Shown here one piece after another: positions 29,533-35,668 of a stretch of 64,000 bases of DNA. Positions within the stretch are counted from its first letter, which is position 1. Each line of letters starts with the position of its first letter. The notes beneath the pieces were generated by a model. It made no database searches. It saw only the letters and a program-made list of their open reading frames with translations, and was not told the DNA's origin. The stretch comes from Mesorhizobium shangrilense (GTDB lineage Bacteria > Pseudomonadota > Alphaproteobacteria > Rhizobiales > Rhizobiaceae): contig NZ_JBEWSZ010000001.1 of NCBI RefSeq assembly GCF_040537815.1, positions 992,001 to 1,056,000 on the forward strand. Reading direction: 5' to 3'. A program made the translations under genes and the position numbers.

Positions 29533-31005
29533 TCACGGACCTTTGACTGCGGATGAGTTGGCGGGCATGCGCCTCGCCGCGGTGCGAGCCGAGAGTATCG
29601 CAAGGATCAGTGCGACAAGCGCCAGGGCGGCAGCCGTCTGGAATGTGACCTGCATCCCATGGGTCGCCGCGGCTGGCGACAGGACGCTTGCACCGGCCTG
29701 TCCCCCTGCCGATGCCATGGCAAAAATGGCACCCATCACCGATGCGCCGGTGATCAGGCCGAGATTGCGCGCCAGATTGAGCAGGCCGGAGACCACGCCG
29801 CGCTGGTCCGCACCGACACCGCCCATCACAGCTGAATTGTTCGATGTCTGGAACAGGGCGTAGCCTATGCAGGTGACTGTGATTGGCACGACATAGCCGG
29901 CAATGCCGAGGTCCGCCCTGGCCAATGACATGAGGACTGTGCCGGCCACGAGGCCGAACAGGCCCGCGACCATCATCCGGTGCGCGCCGAAGCGGTCGAC
30001 CAGGCGCCCAGCCGCCAGCGCTGACAGGGACGAGACAAGCGGTCCGGTCGAAAGTACCAGGCCGACCATGGCGGCATTCAGGCCGAGCGCGCGCGAAAGG
30101 TAGAACGGGGCAACAACCAGTGTCGCCATCATCACCGTGGCGACGATCAGGCTCATGGCGAGGCTTGCGTTCAACGTGCGGTCGCGAAACTTCTCTGGTT
30201 GAATCAATGGGTTGGCAACGCGTGTCTCGGCAAGGGCGAAGAGGAAGCCTCCGGCTGCGGCTGCGACGAGCAGGCCGATATTGAGGGAGCCGAAGCTGCC
30301 CCGGCCAAGCGTCATGGCCAGCGCATAGGCCGCCGGTGTGAGCGCGAGCAGAGTGGTGCCGATACTGTCGAAACCGGCTTGATCCGTCTTGGCCGTCTTC
30401 TTGCGCGCCGGCAAGCTGCGATAGGCGAGGGCGAAAGTGAGGACGCCCAGCGGCACATTGACCAGAAATATCGCCCGCCAGCCGAGCCAGGCTATCAGCA
30501 GGCCGCCAAGCGACGGGCCAAGCGTGGTGCCGATCGACGACATGGCGCCGAGCAGGCCCATGGCACTCCCGGTTTTCGTCTTGGCAACCGTCTCGCCGAC
30601 AAAGGCGAGCGTCAGGGCCATCATCATCGCCGCGCCAAGTCCCTGCACGGCGCGTGCCGCGATGAGCAGCCACAAGGTCGGCGCAAGGCCACAGAGCACC
30701 GACGCTGCCGTGAACAAAGCGATGCCGCAAAGCAGCAGCGGCCGGCGGCCGACCATGTCGGCGAGCCGGCCCGCGCTGACGATCAGGGTTGTGATGGCCA
30801 ACAGATAGGCCAGGACAACCCACTGCACGAGCTGGAACGACGCACCGAACGCCTGCATCAGCGACGGAAGCCCGACGCTGGCGATGCTGGTGCCGAGTGA
30901 TGACAGGAGCGTGGCCAGCGACAGGCTTGCCAGTGCCCATCCGGCGGATCGCACCTCATCCGGCGCCGGTATCAACTCGATGCGACTTTGCTCAGCGATG
31001 GCCAA
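29533..31005 (-). CDS. DHA2-family (14-helix) MFS drug exporter
   Basis: A 490-residue transporter with about 14 hydrophobic segments. Diagnostic motifs are motif A GRLADMVGRRPLL, motif B in IAARAVQGLGAAMMM, and the GAMSSIGTTLGPSLGGLLIAWLGWRAIFLVNVPLG stretch typical of EmrB/QacA antiporters. It should expel drugs or metabolites by proton antiport across the inner membrane. No membrane-fusion partner is adjacent. The divergent LysR gene at 31146 is its probable regulator. Confidence 0.86.
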   Translation of the reverse strand: MAIAEQSRIELIPAPDEVRSAGWALASLSLATLLSSLGTSIASVGLPSLMQAFGASFQLVQWVVLAYLLAITTLIVSAGRLADMVGRRPLLLCGIALFTAASVLCGLAPTLWLLIAARAVQGLGAAMMMALTLAFVGETVAKTKTGSAMGLLGAMSSIGTTLGPSLGGLLIAWLGWRAIFLVNVPLGVLTFALAYRSLPARKKTAKTDQAGFDSIGTTLLALTPAAYALAMTLGRGSFGSLNIGLLVAAAAGGFLFALAETRVANPLIQPEKFRDRTLNASLAMSLIVATVMMATLVVAPFYLSRALGLNAAMVGLVLSTGPLVSSLSALAAGRLVDRFGAHRMMVAGLFGLVAGTVLMSLARADLGIAGYVVPITVTCIGYALFQTSNNSAVMGGVGADQRGVVSGLLNLARNLGLITGASVMGAIFAMASAGGQAGASVLSPAAATHGMQVTFQTAAALALVALILAILSARTAARRMPANSSAVKGP

Positions 31006-31063
31006 GATGATCTCCTTTCCTAAAGCTCCCGAACCGGAGCCATGGGAAAGCTAGCCACCAAGT

Positions 31064-31119
31064 TGATGTGGCGGAACGCGCAGCATTTGCATTCTATCCA
31101 TGCATGAAACGCCACATCA
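31064..31119. promoter_or_regulatory. 10-bp inverted repeat between the DHA2 exporter and the LysR gene
   Basis: TGATGTGGCG (31064-31073) and CGCCACATCA (31110-31119) are exact complements 36 bases apart, in the 140-bp divergent region. A smaller dyad CCACA-TCAC-TGTGG overlaps the right arm. This is the expected place for a LysR operator; binding is inferred. Confidence 0.45.
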
Positions 31120-31145
31120 CTGTGGATCCATGCTACGATCCCGTC

Positions 31146-32039
31146 ATGTCGTCACCCGATCTCAACCTGCTTGGTGCCCTCGATGTCCTGCTGACGGAAG
31201 GCAGCGTCGCGCGCGCCGCCAATCGTCTTCGCCTCAGCCCCTCGGCAATGAGCCGGACCCTGGCGCGGCTGCGCGAGGCGACGGGCGATCCCTTGCTGGT
31301 TCGCGCGGGTCGTGGCCTGGTTCCGACACCGCGTGCCCAGGAGTTGCAGCAGCAGGCTGGCCGTGTGGTCCAGGATGCGGAAGCACTGCTGCGGCCCGCC
31401 AGGCTCCTCAACCCTGCAAGCCTCGACAGGACTTTCACGCTGCGCACCAATGAAAGCTTCGTCGAGGAGTTCGCGCCGCGCCTTGTCGCCCGCATCGAAG
31501 CCGATGCGCCTCGCGTGCGGCTGCGATTTGCACCGAAGTTCGACAAGGACGTCACGTCGCTGCGTGAAGCGGCGATTGACCTCGAGATCGGCGTCGCCGG
31601 CGAAACCGGGCCGGAAATGCGCATCCAGGCGCTGTTTCGCGACCGCTTCATCGGCGCGGTACGGGCTGGTCATCCCTTGAGCGATGGCATCGTGACGGCC
31701 GAGCGCTACGCCTCCGGCCGCCATATCAGTGTTTCGCGGCGTGGCCGCGAGAGAGGGCCGATCGACGAAGCCCTGGAGCGGCTTGGACTGCAACGGACTG
31801 TAGCCTGCATGGTGGCCGGCTTTTCGGCGACGCTGGCTTTGGCACGCGCATCCGACCTGATCGCCAGCGTCCCCGAGCGGCATACCGAGGGTGCACGCAC
31901 GGGCATGCACAGCTTTCCACTGCCGGTCGCCACCGTCGAGGTCACCATCTCGATGCTCTGGCACCCGCGTCTCGATGCCGATCCGGCGCAGCGCTGGTTG
32001 CGCGACCGCGTGCGGGAGGTGTGTTCGGCGTCACGATGA
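31146..32039 (+). CDS. LysR-family transcriptional regulator
   Basis: A 297-residue LTTR. The winged helix covers residues 3-65 (LGALDVLLTEGSVARAANRLRLSPSAMSRTLARLREATGDPLLVRAGRGLVPTPRA). The effector domain continues to the C-terminus (TFTLRTNESFVEEFAPRLVARIEADAPRVRLRF). It is divergent from the DHA2 exporter with an inverted repeat between them, so it probably controls that gene in response to a ligand of unknown nature. The ATG at 31146 (MSSPDLNLLGAL) is used; upstream in-frame codons lie in the promoter region. Confidence 0.86.
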   Translation: MSSPDLNLLGALDVLLTEGSVARAANRLRLSPSAMSRTLARLREATGDPLLVRAGRGLVPTPRAQELQQQAGRVVQDAEALLRPARLLNPASLDRTFTLRTNESFVEEFAPRLVARIEADAPRVRLRFAPKFDKDVTSLREAAIDLEIGVAGETGPEMRIQALFRDRFIGAVRAGHPLSDGIVTAERYASGRHISVSRRGRERGPIDEALERLGLQRTVACMVAGFSATLALARASDLIASVPERHTEGARTGMHSFPLPVATVEVTISMLWHPRLDADPAQRWLRDRVREVCSASR

Positions 32040-32797: not shown

Positions 32798-33994
32798 CTA
32801 TATTTTGCCGGCTAATTGCCTCCGCAGGATCCAGAGTGCTCCTGATGCTACCGTCGGCAGGGCTGTGCAATAGGCCACCAATGGCCACGGCGTATCGCCG
32901 TCGAACAAGATGACAAACAGCGTGCCGACAATGCCCACGACAAGGCTTTGGATGCAGAAGTAGAGCGCCACCGCCGTTCCCGCGACATCGCCGAATTCTT
33001 GCAGTGCGCCGTTCGCGGTCACCGATACAGTGAGGACGATGCCCATGGCGACGATCCACATCGGCAGTACGAATGTCACGAAAGAAGGCGACTCAGGCAT
33101 CTGCCCGACCGCCAGCAGGGCGGCGCCCAGAAGCAGCATCGCCATGCCACGGGCAACGCTGTCCGCAATGCTCCATTGCGCTGCGAATGCTTTGACGAAA
33201 CGTGCGGTCACCATCATCACCAGCGCCGCCGTGGCAAAGGCGACGCTGAACCCGACCTGGGAGAAGCCAGCACGATCGATGAGAACCCGTGGCGCCGTCG
33301 AAAAGAAGACGAAGAAGGCTCCCATCGCGGCACTGAAGGCCAGCGTATAGGTCCAGAAAGGCAAGCTGGAGAGGATGGGTCGGAACGCAACACGGGGAAT
33401 GCAGCCAGTCGAGGGGCGGGTCTCGTGCCATCTTGGCCATGCATTGAGCGTGGCGGCCACCGCCAGCATGCCGAGCGTGATGAAGATCGCGCGCCAGCCA
33501 AGACTGTCCGCAATCAGCGCGCCGGCTATCGGCCCCAGCGCCGGCACGAAGGCCAGCATCGAACTGAACAGGCCATAGATGACCGCACCTTCCGGCCTTT
33601 GCGCATAGACGTCGCGCACCGTGGCGAATGTCGCGACGAGAATGGCCGATGCTCCGATGGCCTGCAACACGCGCAGGACCACGAAGGCGCTCGCCACGGA
33701 CGTGCCGACGAGTAGGAAGGAAGCGGCAGCGAACAGCAGCGCGCCTCCGATCAGCACGGGACGCCTGCCCATCCTGTCGGAGATCGGGCCGAAGATGATC
33801 TGTCCCAGGCCGAGCACGATCATGTACAGGCTCAGCGTCAGCTGAATGACCGCAGGCGACGTCTGGAGGACTGCCGGCATCTTCGGGACGACCGGCAGAT
33901 AGATATCCATGGCCAGCGAAGCCAGGATGTCGAAGGGAGCCATCAGCAACAGCGCCGACGGCAAGGAATAGGTCCAGGATTTTGGAGAAGGCAT
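32798..33994 (-). CDS. CmlA/FloR-like phenicol (chloramphenicol/florfenicol) MFS exporter
   Basis: A 398-residue, 12-helix DHA1 transporter of the Bcr/CflA group. The N-terminus WTYSLPSALLLMAPFDILAS, followed by LAMDIYLPVVPKMP, is nearly the FloR sequence as I recall it. Further shared stretches are FATVRDVYAQRPEG, VIYGLFSS, LAFVPALGPIAGALI, FFVFFSTAPRVLI and SVTANGALQEF. Such proteins export chloramphenicol and, for FloR, florfenicol. The ATG at 33994 aligns with the FloR start, though its ribosome site is weak. Upstream on the same strand lies a nine-codon leader with a stem-loop (34067-34128) like that of inducible cmlA. Substrate range is inferred from homology. Confidence 0.85.
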   Translation of the reverse strand: MPSPKSWTYSLPSALLLMAPFDILASLAMDIYLPVVPKMPAVLQTSPAVIQLTLSLYMIVLGLGQIIFGPISDRMGRRPVLIGGALLFAAASFLLVGTSVASAFVVLRVLQAIGASAILVATFATVRDVYAQRPEGAVIYGLFSSMLAFVPALGPIAGALIADSLGWRAIFITLGMLAVAATLNAWPRWHETRPSTGCIPRVAFRPILSSLPFWTYTLAFSAAMGAFFVFFSTAPRVLIDRAGFSQVGFSVAFATAALVMMVTARFVKAFAAQWSIADSVARGMAMLLLGAALLAVGQMPESPSFVTFVLPMWIVAMGIVLTVSVTANGALQEFGDVAGTAVALYFCIQSLVVGIVGTLFVILFDGDTPWPLVAYCTALPTVASGALWILRRQLAGKI

Positions 33995-34066
33995 GATTGA
34001 ACATCCGCTCAAATGGGTACATTTGGCGGCGATCTGCCGTTTTCATCGAAATCAGGAATGACGGGA

Positions 34067-34109
34067 CAGACTGCCGCAACAACAAGCGTTGCTGCGGCTT
34101 ACTTGTCTG
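34067..34109 (-). promoter_or_regulatory. Stem-loop after the leader peptide, candidate translational attenuator
   Basis: In the minus-strand mRNA, GCCGCAGCAA (34098-34089) pairs with UUGUUGCGGC (34082-34073) in ten of ten positions (one G-U) around a six-base loop, starting immediately after the leader stop codon. An outer CAGAC (34109-34105, overlapping leader codons 7-8) can pair with GUCUG (34071-34067) across an internal loop. A ribosome stalled at codon 8 would cover the outer stem. Nearer the exporter start is a second hairpin, CAAATG-N4-CATTTG. How the exporter's ribosome site would be masked is not obvious. Confidence 0.6.
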
Positions 34110-34128
34110 CTGACTTGCCGGTTCCCAT
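34099..34128 (-). CDS. Nine-residue leader peptide upstream of the phenicol exporter
   Basis: A nine-codon frame encodes MGTGKSADK and ends in TAA. AGGA lies seven bases before the ATG. The attenuator leader of transposon-borne cmlA is MSTSKNADK, and its first eight residues (MSTSKNAD) are known to inhibit peptidyl transferase and stall the ribosome when chloramphenicol is present. Six of nine residues are identical, including the C-terminal ADK, and the other three are small polar or glycine changes. It lies 104 bp before the exporter start on the same strand with a stem-loop directly after it. The match in sequence, length, position and context makes chance unlikely; function is inferred. 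Confidence 0.75.
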   Translation of the reverse strand: MGTGKSADK

Positions 34129-34264
34129 GGCTCTATCCTGAAGTGTCATGCAGTGGTGCACTGCGCGGCAAGCCAGTATCAGGCCAGGCTTGGCTCGGCA
34201 AGCTTCGGGCTTGTTCGGCGCGACCCGACGAGGCTTGGCGCGACGCGATCGGATATCTCCAGGA

Positions 34265-35668
34265 TCAATGCGCCATCGCCGCCTCGAGCGTCCTGAAAAT
34301 CCGATCGTCCGCGGACTGGGCAACGTTGAAGCGCAGGAAGCGGCTGGCGGTCTGGGACAGGCTGAACGCATTGCCGGGCGCCAGCACGATCTTGGCTGAT
34401 AGCGCCCGGCGGGCCACGTCAGCCGCATCGACGCCGTCGGGCAGGCTGCACCACAGAAACAGGCCGGCCGGCTGATCGATCCAGGGGGTGATGCCGATCG
34501 CCCGCAGACGCCCGCTCGTCTCATGCATGGCGCGCGAAAGCCGTGCCCGCAGCAAATCCATGTGCTTGCGGTAGCTGCCGTCCTTCAAAAGGGTGAGTAC
34601 GAGTTCCGATGCAAGCCGCCCGCCGCCGAAGGTCGTGGCGATCTTGAGGTCGGTCAGGCGTTCGATCCAGTCGCGAGGCGCCGCGATGAAGCCGCAGCGG
34701 ACCGAGGCCGACAGCGTCTTGGAAAAGCTGCCGATATGGACGACGCGGCTCAGACCATCGAACGCCGCCAGCCTGGGGGCAGGGGCATGTTCGAAATCGG
34801 CGAAGATATCGTCCTCGACGATGGTCAGTTCGGATTGGTCGGCGAGCTTGAGCAGCCGGTGCGCGGTGACCGGCGACAGGATTGCGCCGGTCGGGTTGTG
34901 GATTGCGGAGTTGGTGATGTAGAGGCGCGGCCGATGCTCGGTGAGCGCCTGCGCGAACAGCTCGATATCCGGCCCTGACGGCGTGTAGGGAACGCTGACC
35001 ACCTTGGCCCGGTGCGCGCGCAGCAGGGCATGGAAATTGAAATAGCAGGGATCGTCGACCAGCACCGTATCGCCGGGTTCGAGCAGCAGCCGGCACAGCA
35101 GGTCGATGGCTTGCGTGCCCGATTCCGTCAGCATGATCTGGTCGGGTGAGGCGTCGATGCCGTGCTCGGCCATACGCCGCGCCAGCAATTGGCGCAGCGG
35201 CGGCAGGCCGAGCGGCGTGCCGTAGTCCGCGAGCGTCACATCATCGGCGCGCGCCACGGTCCGCAGTGCCCGGCGCAACCCGGCCTCCGGCATCCACGAG
35301 GCCGGCAGCCAGCCGCAGCCGGGTTTCAGGACGTCGTCGCCGGCTTCCAGCGATTGGCGCGAAACCCAGAGCGGATCGACCGCACGGTCGAGCCGAGGCC
35401 CGATCTCGGCCAGCGACAAGGGCGCCAGTTGGCCGGCGGCATAGAAGCCAGAGCCCGGCCGCGAGCGGATGGTGCCTTCGGCCGCCAGCCGCTCATAGGC
35501 TTCGACCACGGTGGATTTGGAAACCTGCATGGACTGGGCGAAGGCGCGGATCGACGGCAGTTTCGCGCCTGGCGTCAGCGTGCGCGCCGAAATGCGTTGG
35601 CGAATGGTGGCCATGACGCTTTCGACAAGCGTTGCGCCTCCGTCGAGCCTTATGGCTGGTTCATCCAT
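34265..35668 (-). CDS. MocR-type regulator (GntR winged helix fused to an aminotransferase-like domain)
   Basis: A 467-residue MocR/PdxR-class protein. The GntR winged helix is at residues 12-75 (LVESVMATIRQRISARTLTPGAKLPSIRAFAQSMQVSKSTVVEAYERLAAEGTIRSRPGSGFY). The fold-type I aminotransferase-like domain follows, with the PLP lysine at Lys317 in GSFSKTLSASVRCGF and the cofactor motifs SGTQAIDLL and IHNPTGAIL. Such proteins sense PLP or an amino-compound adduct. It diverges from an EamA exporter, its probable target. The ATG at 35668 fits the domain start; the open frame upstream is the mirror of the exporter gene. Confidence 0.9.
   Translation of the reverse strand: MDEPAIRLDGGATLVESVMATIRQRISARTLTPGAKLPSIRAFAQSMQVSKSTVVEAYERLAAEGTIRSRPGSGFYAAGQLAPLSLAEIGPRLDRAVDPLWVSRQSLEAGDDVLKPGCGWLPASWMPEAGLRRALRTVARADDVTLADYGTPLGLPPLRQLLARRMAEHGIDASPDQIMLTESGTQAIDLLCRLLLEPGDTVLVDDPCYFNFHALLRAHRAKVVSVPYTPSGPDIELFAQALTEHRPRLYITNSAIHNPTGAILSPVTAHRLLKLADQSELTIVEDDIFADFEHAPAPRLAAFDGLSRVVHIGSFSKTLSASVRCGFIAAPRDWIERLTDLKIATTFGGGRLASELVLTLLKDGSYRKHMDLLRARLSRAMHETSGRLRAIGITPWIDQPAGLFLWCSLPDGVDAADVARRALSAKIVLAPGNAFSLSQTASRFLRFNVAQSADDRIFRTLEAAMAH

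Follow-up and report, generated by a model that had tools for sequence, protein, structure and literature searches.

The window, that is, the whole stretch of 64,000 nucleotides of Mesorhizobium shangrilense DNA that was analysed, carries on its minus strand a gene for a predicted phenicol exporter of the CmlA/FloR family (Table 1). The exporter passes the family model NF033134 but not the allele models (570 of the required 700 bits for FloR, 391 of 875 for CmlA), and is therefore a family member rather than a mobile allele. Among the plasmid proteins listed, it is 64–68% identical to floR products and 50–51% identical to cmlA products. It is the one family match in the source genome at E up to 1e-100, and its next relatives there are about 30% identical. 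The Shine-Dalgarno sequence of the exporter gene is weak. The upstream neighbour of the leader and exporter is a MocR-like regulator gene (34265–35668, minus strand), which was found upstream in 16 of the 160 distinct exporter loci compared below, including the window, many of these loci having too little flank to show it. The attenuator locus is also adjoined by a second exporter, of the EmrB/DHA2 type (minus strand), divergent from a LysR-type regulator (plus strand) at 29533–32039.

Table 1. Features of the exporter locus, in window coordinates. Segments 1 to 4 are the pairing segments discussed in the text.
Feature	Position	Strand	Description and basis
CmlA/FloR-family phenicol exporter, 398 aa	32798..33994	minus	NCBIfam NF033134 cmlA_floR, 637 bits, cut-off 450
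Segment 4 (CATTTGAGCGG)	34005..34015	minus	3' arm of hairpin B (91.3% of its cells paired), near exporter start; presumed site of ribosome binding
Segment 3 (GCCGCCAAATG)	34020..34030	minus	5' arm of hairpin B, via GCCGC partner of segment 2; alignment pairing
Segment 3' (GGCAGA)	34033..34038	minus	Partner of segment 2'; alignment pairing
Segment 2' (TCTGTC)	34065..34070	minus	Pairs with segment 3' in 86.6% of cells; both sides changed at 4 of 6 pairs
Segment 2	34073..34083	minus	Forms the 3' arm of hairpin A, can instead pair with segment 3; least variable segment compared
Segment 1	34088..34098	minus	5' arm of hairpin A, directly after stop; 99.4% of hairpin A cells paired
Segment 1' (GCAGAC)	34105..34110	minus	Codons 7-8; can lengthen hairpin A through pairing with segment 2'; 75.7% of cells paired, 75 rows
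Leader ORF MGTGKSADK* (ATGGGAACCGGCAAGTCAGCAGACAAGTAA)	34128..34099	minus	ATG at 34128, stop ending 34099; sequence reading and conservation
AGGA, ribosome-binding site of leader	34136..34139	minus	7 nt 5' of leader ATG; sequence
Putative -10 element CTGATA of the attenuator's own promoter	34177..34182	minus	Tentative

The original prediction was that a nine-codon frame with its own ribosome-binding site precedes the exporter gene and resembles the leader of the cmlA attenuator. The sequence confirmed the frame, whose stop codon lies 104 nt before the exporter ATG (33994) on the same strand; this is the minus strand, none having been stated earlier, and the plus-strand translation at these positions is unrelated to MGTGKSADK. 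The likeness to the cmlA leader MSTSKNADK held as well, since six of nine residues, the ADK end and the position agree, and the stall motif is present as KSADK, compared with KNADK in cmlA. The sequence MSTSKNADK was read directly from plasmid-borne cmlA1 (L089) and cmlA5 (L090). The analysis supports MGTGKSADK as a homologue of the cmlA attenuator leader, conserved at the peptide level. The -10 element is proposed only tentatively because a consensus scan of the window at 33900–34400 gave no sigma-70 promoter; the motif [CT]TGnTA occurred 62–32 nt before the leader in 42 of 75 loci, whereas two control stretches had it in 2 of 75 each.

The breadth of leader conservation was assessed in 188 exporter loci including the window (80 from a contig search, 66 from genus, family and phylum samples, 34 further loci, and 7 plasmid regions), of which 28 were removed as duplicates, leaving 160 distinct loci. 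The strict scan accepted an ATG or GTG frame of 7–9 codons with Ala, Ser, or Thr at position n-2 (n, last residue) ending 95–220 nt upstream of the exporter. Such a leader was found in 145 of the 160 loci, compared with 5 of 159 far-upstream control stretches, 5 of 160 antisense stretches, and a mean of 10.15 of 160 (maximum 16) in dinucleotide shuffles. When Asp at n-1 was also required, 130 loci remained, with none far upstream, none antisense, and a shuffle mean of 0.25 (maximum 2). With 145 hits against approximately ten in shuffles, the leader is therefore not a product of chance. An unfiltered scan, which accepted any ATG frame of 7–9 codons ending 98–120 nt before the exporter, found a frame in 127 of 160 loci. 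The leader-bearing loci include Mesorhizobium, Rhizobium, Aminobacter, Ensifer, Burkholderia, and Myxococcus.

Fourteen of the 15 loci missed by the strict scan show a longer, shorter, or stop-less variant when judged by eye. The variants read in this manner include MKSSDR from a GTG start (L140), MTGSTKSADK (L171), MNNGNGPQTVR or MSNGNGPQTVR (L158–L160), MSTLKMHITDR (L161), and SATR forms (L188–L192). With these included, the leader is present in 159 of 160 loci; the sole locus without one, by strict scan or by eye, is L084 of Stenotrophomonas. In L052, L063, and L086, the stop codon of the leader MGATPSADR is replaced by three different sense codons and the frame runs on; the stall motif and its spacing to the following hairpin A are kept despite the lost stop codon.

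The exporter itself is distributed unevenly. Among 146 genus genomes, 33 carry it at E up to 1e-100, and 32 have a match that passes the curated cut-off. It was found in 63 of 346 genomes of the family sample, only in the window's own genome among 385 genomes of the class sample, and in 13 of 398 genomes of the phylum sample, which includes its own genome and other genus and family members. This patchy distribution therefore points to frequent transfer or loss. A lack of conservation among close relatives had been named beforehand as refuting the idea; instead, the leader was present in all 33 exporter genomes of the genus. A covariance model of the leader and hairpin A, from which 15 of 75 rows were removed by hand and which was trained in part on loci later searched, gave 75.4 bits at its own locus and at most 19.5 bits elsewhere in the source genome. 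In the 146 genus genomes, it matched 34 places at 59 bits or more (next best, 28.2), of which 33 precede an exporter, one in each of the 33 exporter genomes. In 299 phylum genomes, 11 matches reached at least 37 bits, all in genomes with the exporter; six of the weaker matches (L237, L238, L239, L242, L244, and L245), compared with the exporter, showed no convincing likeness to it, L245 having a single short weak one (E 1e-4). A Rfam search of the window at 33000–35000 with E up to 1 gave two hits, both under the gathering score and outside the leader-to-start stretch, and no match was found in L089, L091, L021, L027, or L065.

The 34th strong match lies in genome G005 (L204, near 1500, minus strand), where a complete leader and switch precede the few first exporter codons and the remainder of the gene is absent. 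What looks by eye like the same MocR gene stands beside this orphan leader. The arrangement looks like a solo attenuator left by deletion. In three further places (G010:C19, G026:C1, and G073:C1), the exporter match covers part of the family profile and the leader score is high; these exporters are possibly decayed or misassembled. The idea that the leader serves other genes was rejected, since the strong covariance matches lie upstream of the exporter family or, in G005, upstream of its remnant.

The nascent-chain position meant in the context rule of chloramphenicol is the penultimate one. Excerpts of a published account describe inhibition as strongest when the nascent chain contains Ala, Ser, or Thr, with a C-terminal Gly counteracting it (PMC10192921). 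In the unfiltered frames, residue n-2 is Ala in 91, Ser in 31, Thr in 5, and nothing else (127 of 127), and 113 of the 127 have Asp at n-1. On the 90-row exporter tree, n-2 changes at least 16 times, within these three residues, and n-1 at least nine times; the leaders of most rows had been picked with Ala, Ser, or Thr required at n-2, and the unbiased figure is the 127 of 127. Gly is absent at n-1 and n in 144 of 145 leaders. The exception, L062, is a wrongly picked frame (MVLPSKTQG), its hairpin-adjoining frame being MAPSLQTVR; both have Thr at n-2. The sequences indicate that the residue that would be penultimate in the stalled ribosome is the chloramphenicol context. For the cmlA leader, a stall with Asp8 in the P site and Lys9 in the A site is cited in the available text of PMC11190716, in which a toeprint is shown for a minimal KNAD leader. 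By homology with cmlA, the leader of the window is predicted to stall with Ala7 penultimate, Asp8 in the P site, and Lys9 in the A site. Gly2, to which the stall rule gives no role, is present in 102 of 123 nine-codon leaders, mostly as GGA, and residues 3–4 vary widely.

A further element of the original prediction was that the codons are conserved at the amino-acid level as the flanking DNA drifts. In codons 5–9 of nine-codon leaders, compared in pairs that are not independent, the synonymous share of changed codons was 34% at 60–70% exporter identity and 41% at 70–80%, against 15% for random placement; in closer pairs it was 26% against 17%. Whole leaders of the closest pairs (90–99% exporter identity) gave no signal (0.18 versus 0.16). 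The DNA 60–20 nt upstream, compared ungapped, differs at 0.70–0.75 per site at 60–80% exporter identity and at 0.48–0.56 in closer pairs. Peptide-level conservation beside a drifting flank was thus borne out, except in the closest pairs. At n-2, 105 of 144 leaders use the codon GCA, and 143 of them all have a codon ending in A or G there; a possible pairing of codons 7-8 with segment 2' would explain this preference. Both the peptide and the RNA therefore appear to be under constraint in the leader.

RNA pairing was analysed in an alignment of 75 rows, obtained from the 145 leaders by removing 12 that start more than 160 nt from the exporter and 58 at 90% identity. A stem-loop directly after the leader, placed where a stalled ribosome would disrupt its pairing, is present in the window. 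This hairpin A has 11 bp, and no gap separates the stop codon from its 5' arm in any of the 75 rows. Four of its 11 pairs have changed on both sides with pairing kept. Hairpin A and its extension hold 26 double-changed cells against 9.8 in shuffles, and the number of double-changed pairs equals that of the shuffles (231 of 500 as high). For hairpin B, over the exporter start region, 7 of 10 pairs have changed on both sides. Its double-changed cells number 37, whereas shuffles give 14.3 and no slid version exceeds 21, and the covariation score is 0.223 against 0.159 (sd 0.008). The shuffle controls leave the relatedness of the rows in place. Without prompting, RNAalifold recovered hairpin A and the greater part of hairpin B. 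Both hairpins are thus well supported by covariation. Four loci not included in the alignment (L188, L189, L191, and L192) have hairpin A arms that both depart in sequence from those of other loci and still pair.

Segments 2 and 2' can also pair with segments 3 and 3' in an alternative helix. In this helix, 92.2% of cells are paired (core, 98.9%; outer part, 86.6%), compared with at most 61% in slid versions, and its covariation score of 0.155 exceeds all 500 shuffles (mean 0.128). The number of pairs with double changes does not beat the shuffles, 72 of 500 of which reach it, and the 11 cells of the helix that changed on both sides fall inside the slid-control range of 5 to 17. The GCGGC:GCCGC core is nearly invariant. 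Segment 2 has a mean pairwise difference of 0.046, compared with 0.125 for segment 1.

The effect of a stalled ribosome was modelled by masking, in which the transcript was cut 8 nt past the stop codon, approximately the edge of a ribosome with codon 8 in the P site; this edge was placed by the toeprint distance. Over the 75 rows, masking lowered hairpin A from 0.98 to 0.03 and hairpin B from 0.80 to 0.45, and raised the 2:3 core from 0.00 to 0.63. The core exceeded 0.5 in 51 of 75 masked rows and in none unmasked, and 24 rows stayed at or below 0.5. It rose from 0.00 to 0.94 in the window, and reached 0.96 in cmlA1 and 0.84 in floR. A cut at the stop codon itself did not flip the fold. Since the outer 2':3' part is predicted at 0.95 in the window even unmasked, only the 2:3 core tells the two states apart. 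Hairpin B, predicted at 0.99 in the unmasked window, fell to 0.53. The mean unpaired fraction of segment 4 rose from 0.17 to 0.24 (up in 24 of 75 rows, down in 2), with 0.17 to 0.19 in the window and 0.39 to 0.33 in floR. A flip of the fold upon stalling is plausible in this model; the last step, the opening of the exporter start, is weak. Among nine loci folded apart, the masked transcripts gave the alternative helix in L158 and L161, and it was absent from the minimum-energy folds of L052, L063, and L188–L192. By alignment-defined columns, hairpin B has a probability of 0 in the cmlA1 and floR (L091, plasmid peH4H) representatives, compared with 0.99 in the window.

We consider it likely that the exporter gene is under the control of a phenicol-responsive translational attenuator at this locus. 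In the absence of the drug, the leader would be translated and released, hairpin A (1:2) would form, and hairpin B (3:4) would fold the exporter start region. In the presence of the drug, the ribosome would stall with Ala7 penultimate and Asp8 in the P site, and its edge, approximately 8 nt past the stop codon, would cover the 5' arm of hairpin A. The freed segment 2 would then pair with segment 3, the base of hairpin B would open, and the exporter start would be exposed. The switch between the two RNA states is taken from the folding model, and we infer that stalling is drug-dependent, that the output is translational, and that phenicols are the natural inducer.

The same stalled ribosome would suffice for transcription attenuation. 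It would then block Rho-dependent or intrinsic termination within the 104-nt gap, and RNA polymerase, not the start codon, would be the target of the hairpins. The higher floR mRNA with phenicols, reported in the available text of PMC8256890, fits this mechanism, and the small predicted exposure of segment 4 leaves room for it. However, the single candidate from a terminator scan of 33900–34400 is on the plus strand, so that the coding strand gave none, and hairpin B, which covaries, is located at the exporter start. We regard transcription attenuation as unlikely and favor control at the exporter start.

Two other explanations deserve far less weight. The locus might be a relic or a chance resemblance, functionless in this strain, and G005, which keeps a leader with the exporter gone, indicates that leaders can outlive the gene. 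The 145 strict hits against approximately ten in shuffles, the leader accompanying all 33 exporters of the genus, and the compensatory changes in the hairpins make this very improbable. Least probable of all is that the leader peptide acts in trans, as does peTrpL of Sinorhizobium meliloti, which, according to excerpts of PMC7298713, acts on a multidrug-resistance operon. The retention of Gly2, which has no role in the stall rule, would suit such a peptide, but the conserved peptide end stands at a fixed spacing to hairpin A (a gap in 0 of 75 rows) and residues 3–4 vary widely. Translational attenuation thus remains our preferred reading of the locus.

Attenuators of the cat/ermC type differ from this locus in the regulated enzyme, the leader, and the hairpin layout. 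They act, as in the mechanism proposed here, through a ribosome that the drug stalls on a short leader and that thereby unmasks a start (available text of PMC8876359). Another of the closest known systems is the attenuator of cmlA in integron cassettes (Tn1696; Stokes and Hall 1991, cited by PMC8876359 and PMC11190716), which is already known, together with its stall at Asp8/Lys9 (PMC8876359, PMC10192921, and PMC11190716). It shares with the window a nine-codon leader with the K-x-A-D-K end, an exporter of the same family, identical hairpin A arms (22 of 22), an equal position, and a stretch that is alignable to the exporter start. In contrast, the window is chromosomal, lies beside a MocR-type regulator, and has an exporter that is 50% identical and a weaker exporter ribosome-binding site. 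The putative floR attenuator of mobile elements likewise has a nine-residue leader (MGNSKSADK in L091), an inverted repeat after the leader, and an exporter that is 68% identical. Excerpts of PMC5890775 and PMC8256890 describe the leader and first hairpin of mobile floR, report induction of floR by phenicols, and state that the stem-loop does not overlap the floR ribosome-binding site, leaving the link between them open. The exporter-proximal hairpin and the possible alternative helix, which our comparison adds, offer a candidate answer to how a stem-loop far from that site could act there.

The device is therefore of a known kind. What we add is the chromosomal setting, the breadth of occurrence, the rule for residue n-2, and the half of the switch that lies nearer the exporter. 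The original prediction set chromosomal leaders against those of mobile elements; a leader is indeed present in a rhizobial chromosome, but the device is not new, as the mobile floR leader is in print (excerpts of PMC5890775 and PMC8256890). For the rhizobial chromosomal form, no paper recognizable as treating it was listed in the open-licence literature searched.

The exporter tree (90 rows; two paralogues of the source genome, L195, and L084 left out) is unrooted, and gain and loss of the leader are indistinguishable on it. Rooting with the two paralogues was rejected, as the outgroup branches were very long and did not fall on one side of a branch. Four loci, which may themselves be floR copies acquired by transfer, join the mobile floR genes (L091, L092, L093, and L095) in a group of 8 rows (99/96). 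This group lies within a 16-row group (100/97), with weaker intervening branches, whose other eight rows comprise one locus of the window's genus, five of its family, the Rhizobiales isolate L059, and Chelatococcus L046. cmlA1 sits on a long branch, in a group (98/94) that it forms with L161 and four loci from the family of the window. Mobile floR thus appears to have received the device from a rhizobial lineage, and the device appears to travel with the exporter. The predicted origin of the attenuator in soil Rhizobiales is supported for mobile floR, which groups among rhizobial exporters, and may or may not extend to cmlA, given its long branch.

The presence of the leader on all sides of the unrooted tree fits an ancestral origin. 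We give even chances to a broader reading, in which the leader and four-segment switch would be the ancestral phenicol sensor of the whole CmlA/FloR family. The sensor would have followed the exporter through descent and transfer, with rhizobial chromosomes as its home. It would already have been attached when mobile floR, and perhaps cmlA, was captured, and the variation restricted to Ala, Ser, and Thr would record old selection by natural soil phenicols. Our results suggest that the sensing device is older than the mobile resistance genes. Because the leader occurs in 145 of 160 related loci from several genera, they also suggest that the assembly of inducible phenicol resistance predates use of the drugs in clinics or on farms, and that it was mobilised as a unit. 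The residue rule at one leader position would then be an evolutionary record of the context preference of the drug.

Leader and gene are not always inherited together. In L155 (1351–1503) and in plasmids NZ_CP118678.1, NZ_CP045917.1, NZ_CP150797.1, and NZ_CP115818.1, cmlA leader DNA runs into a floR2-type switch and gene. In L155 and the four plasmid records, the change from cmlA to floR2 falls, judged by eye, within hairpin A. The joining of cmlA leader DNA to a floR2 gene therefore indicates that leaders also move between genes.
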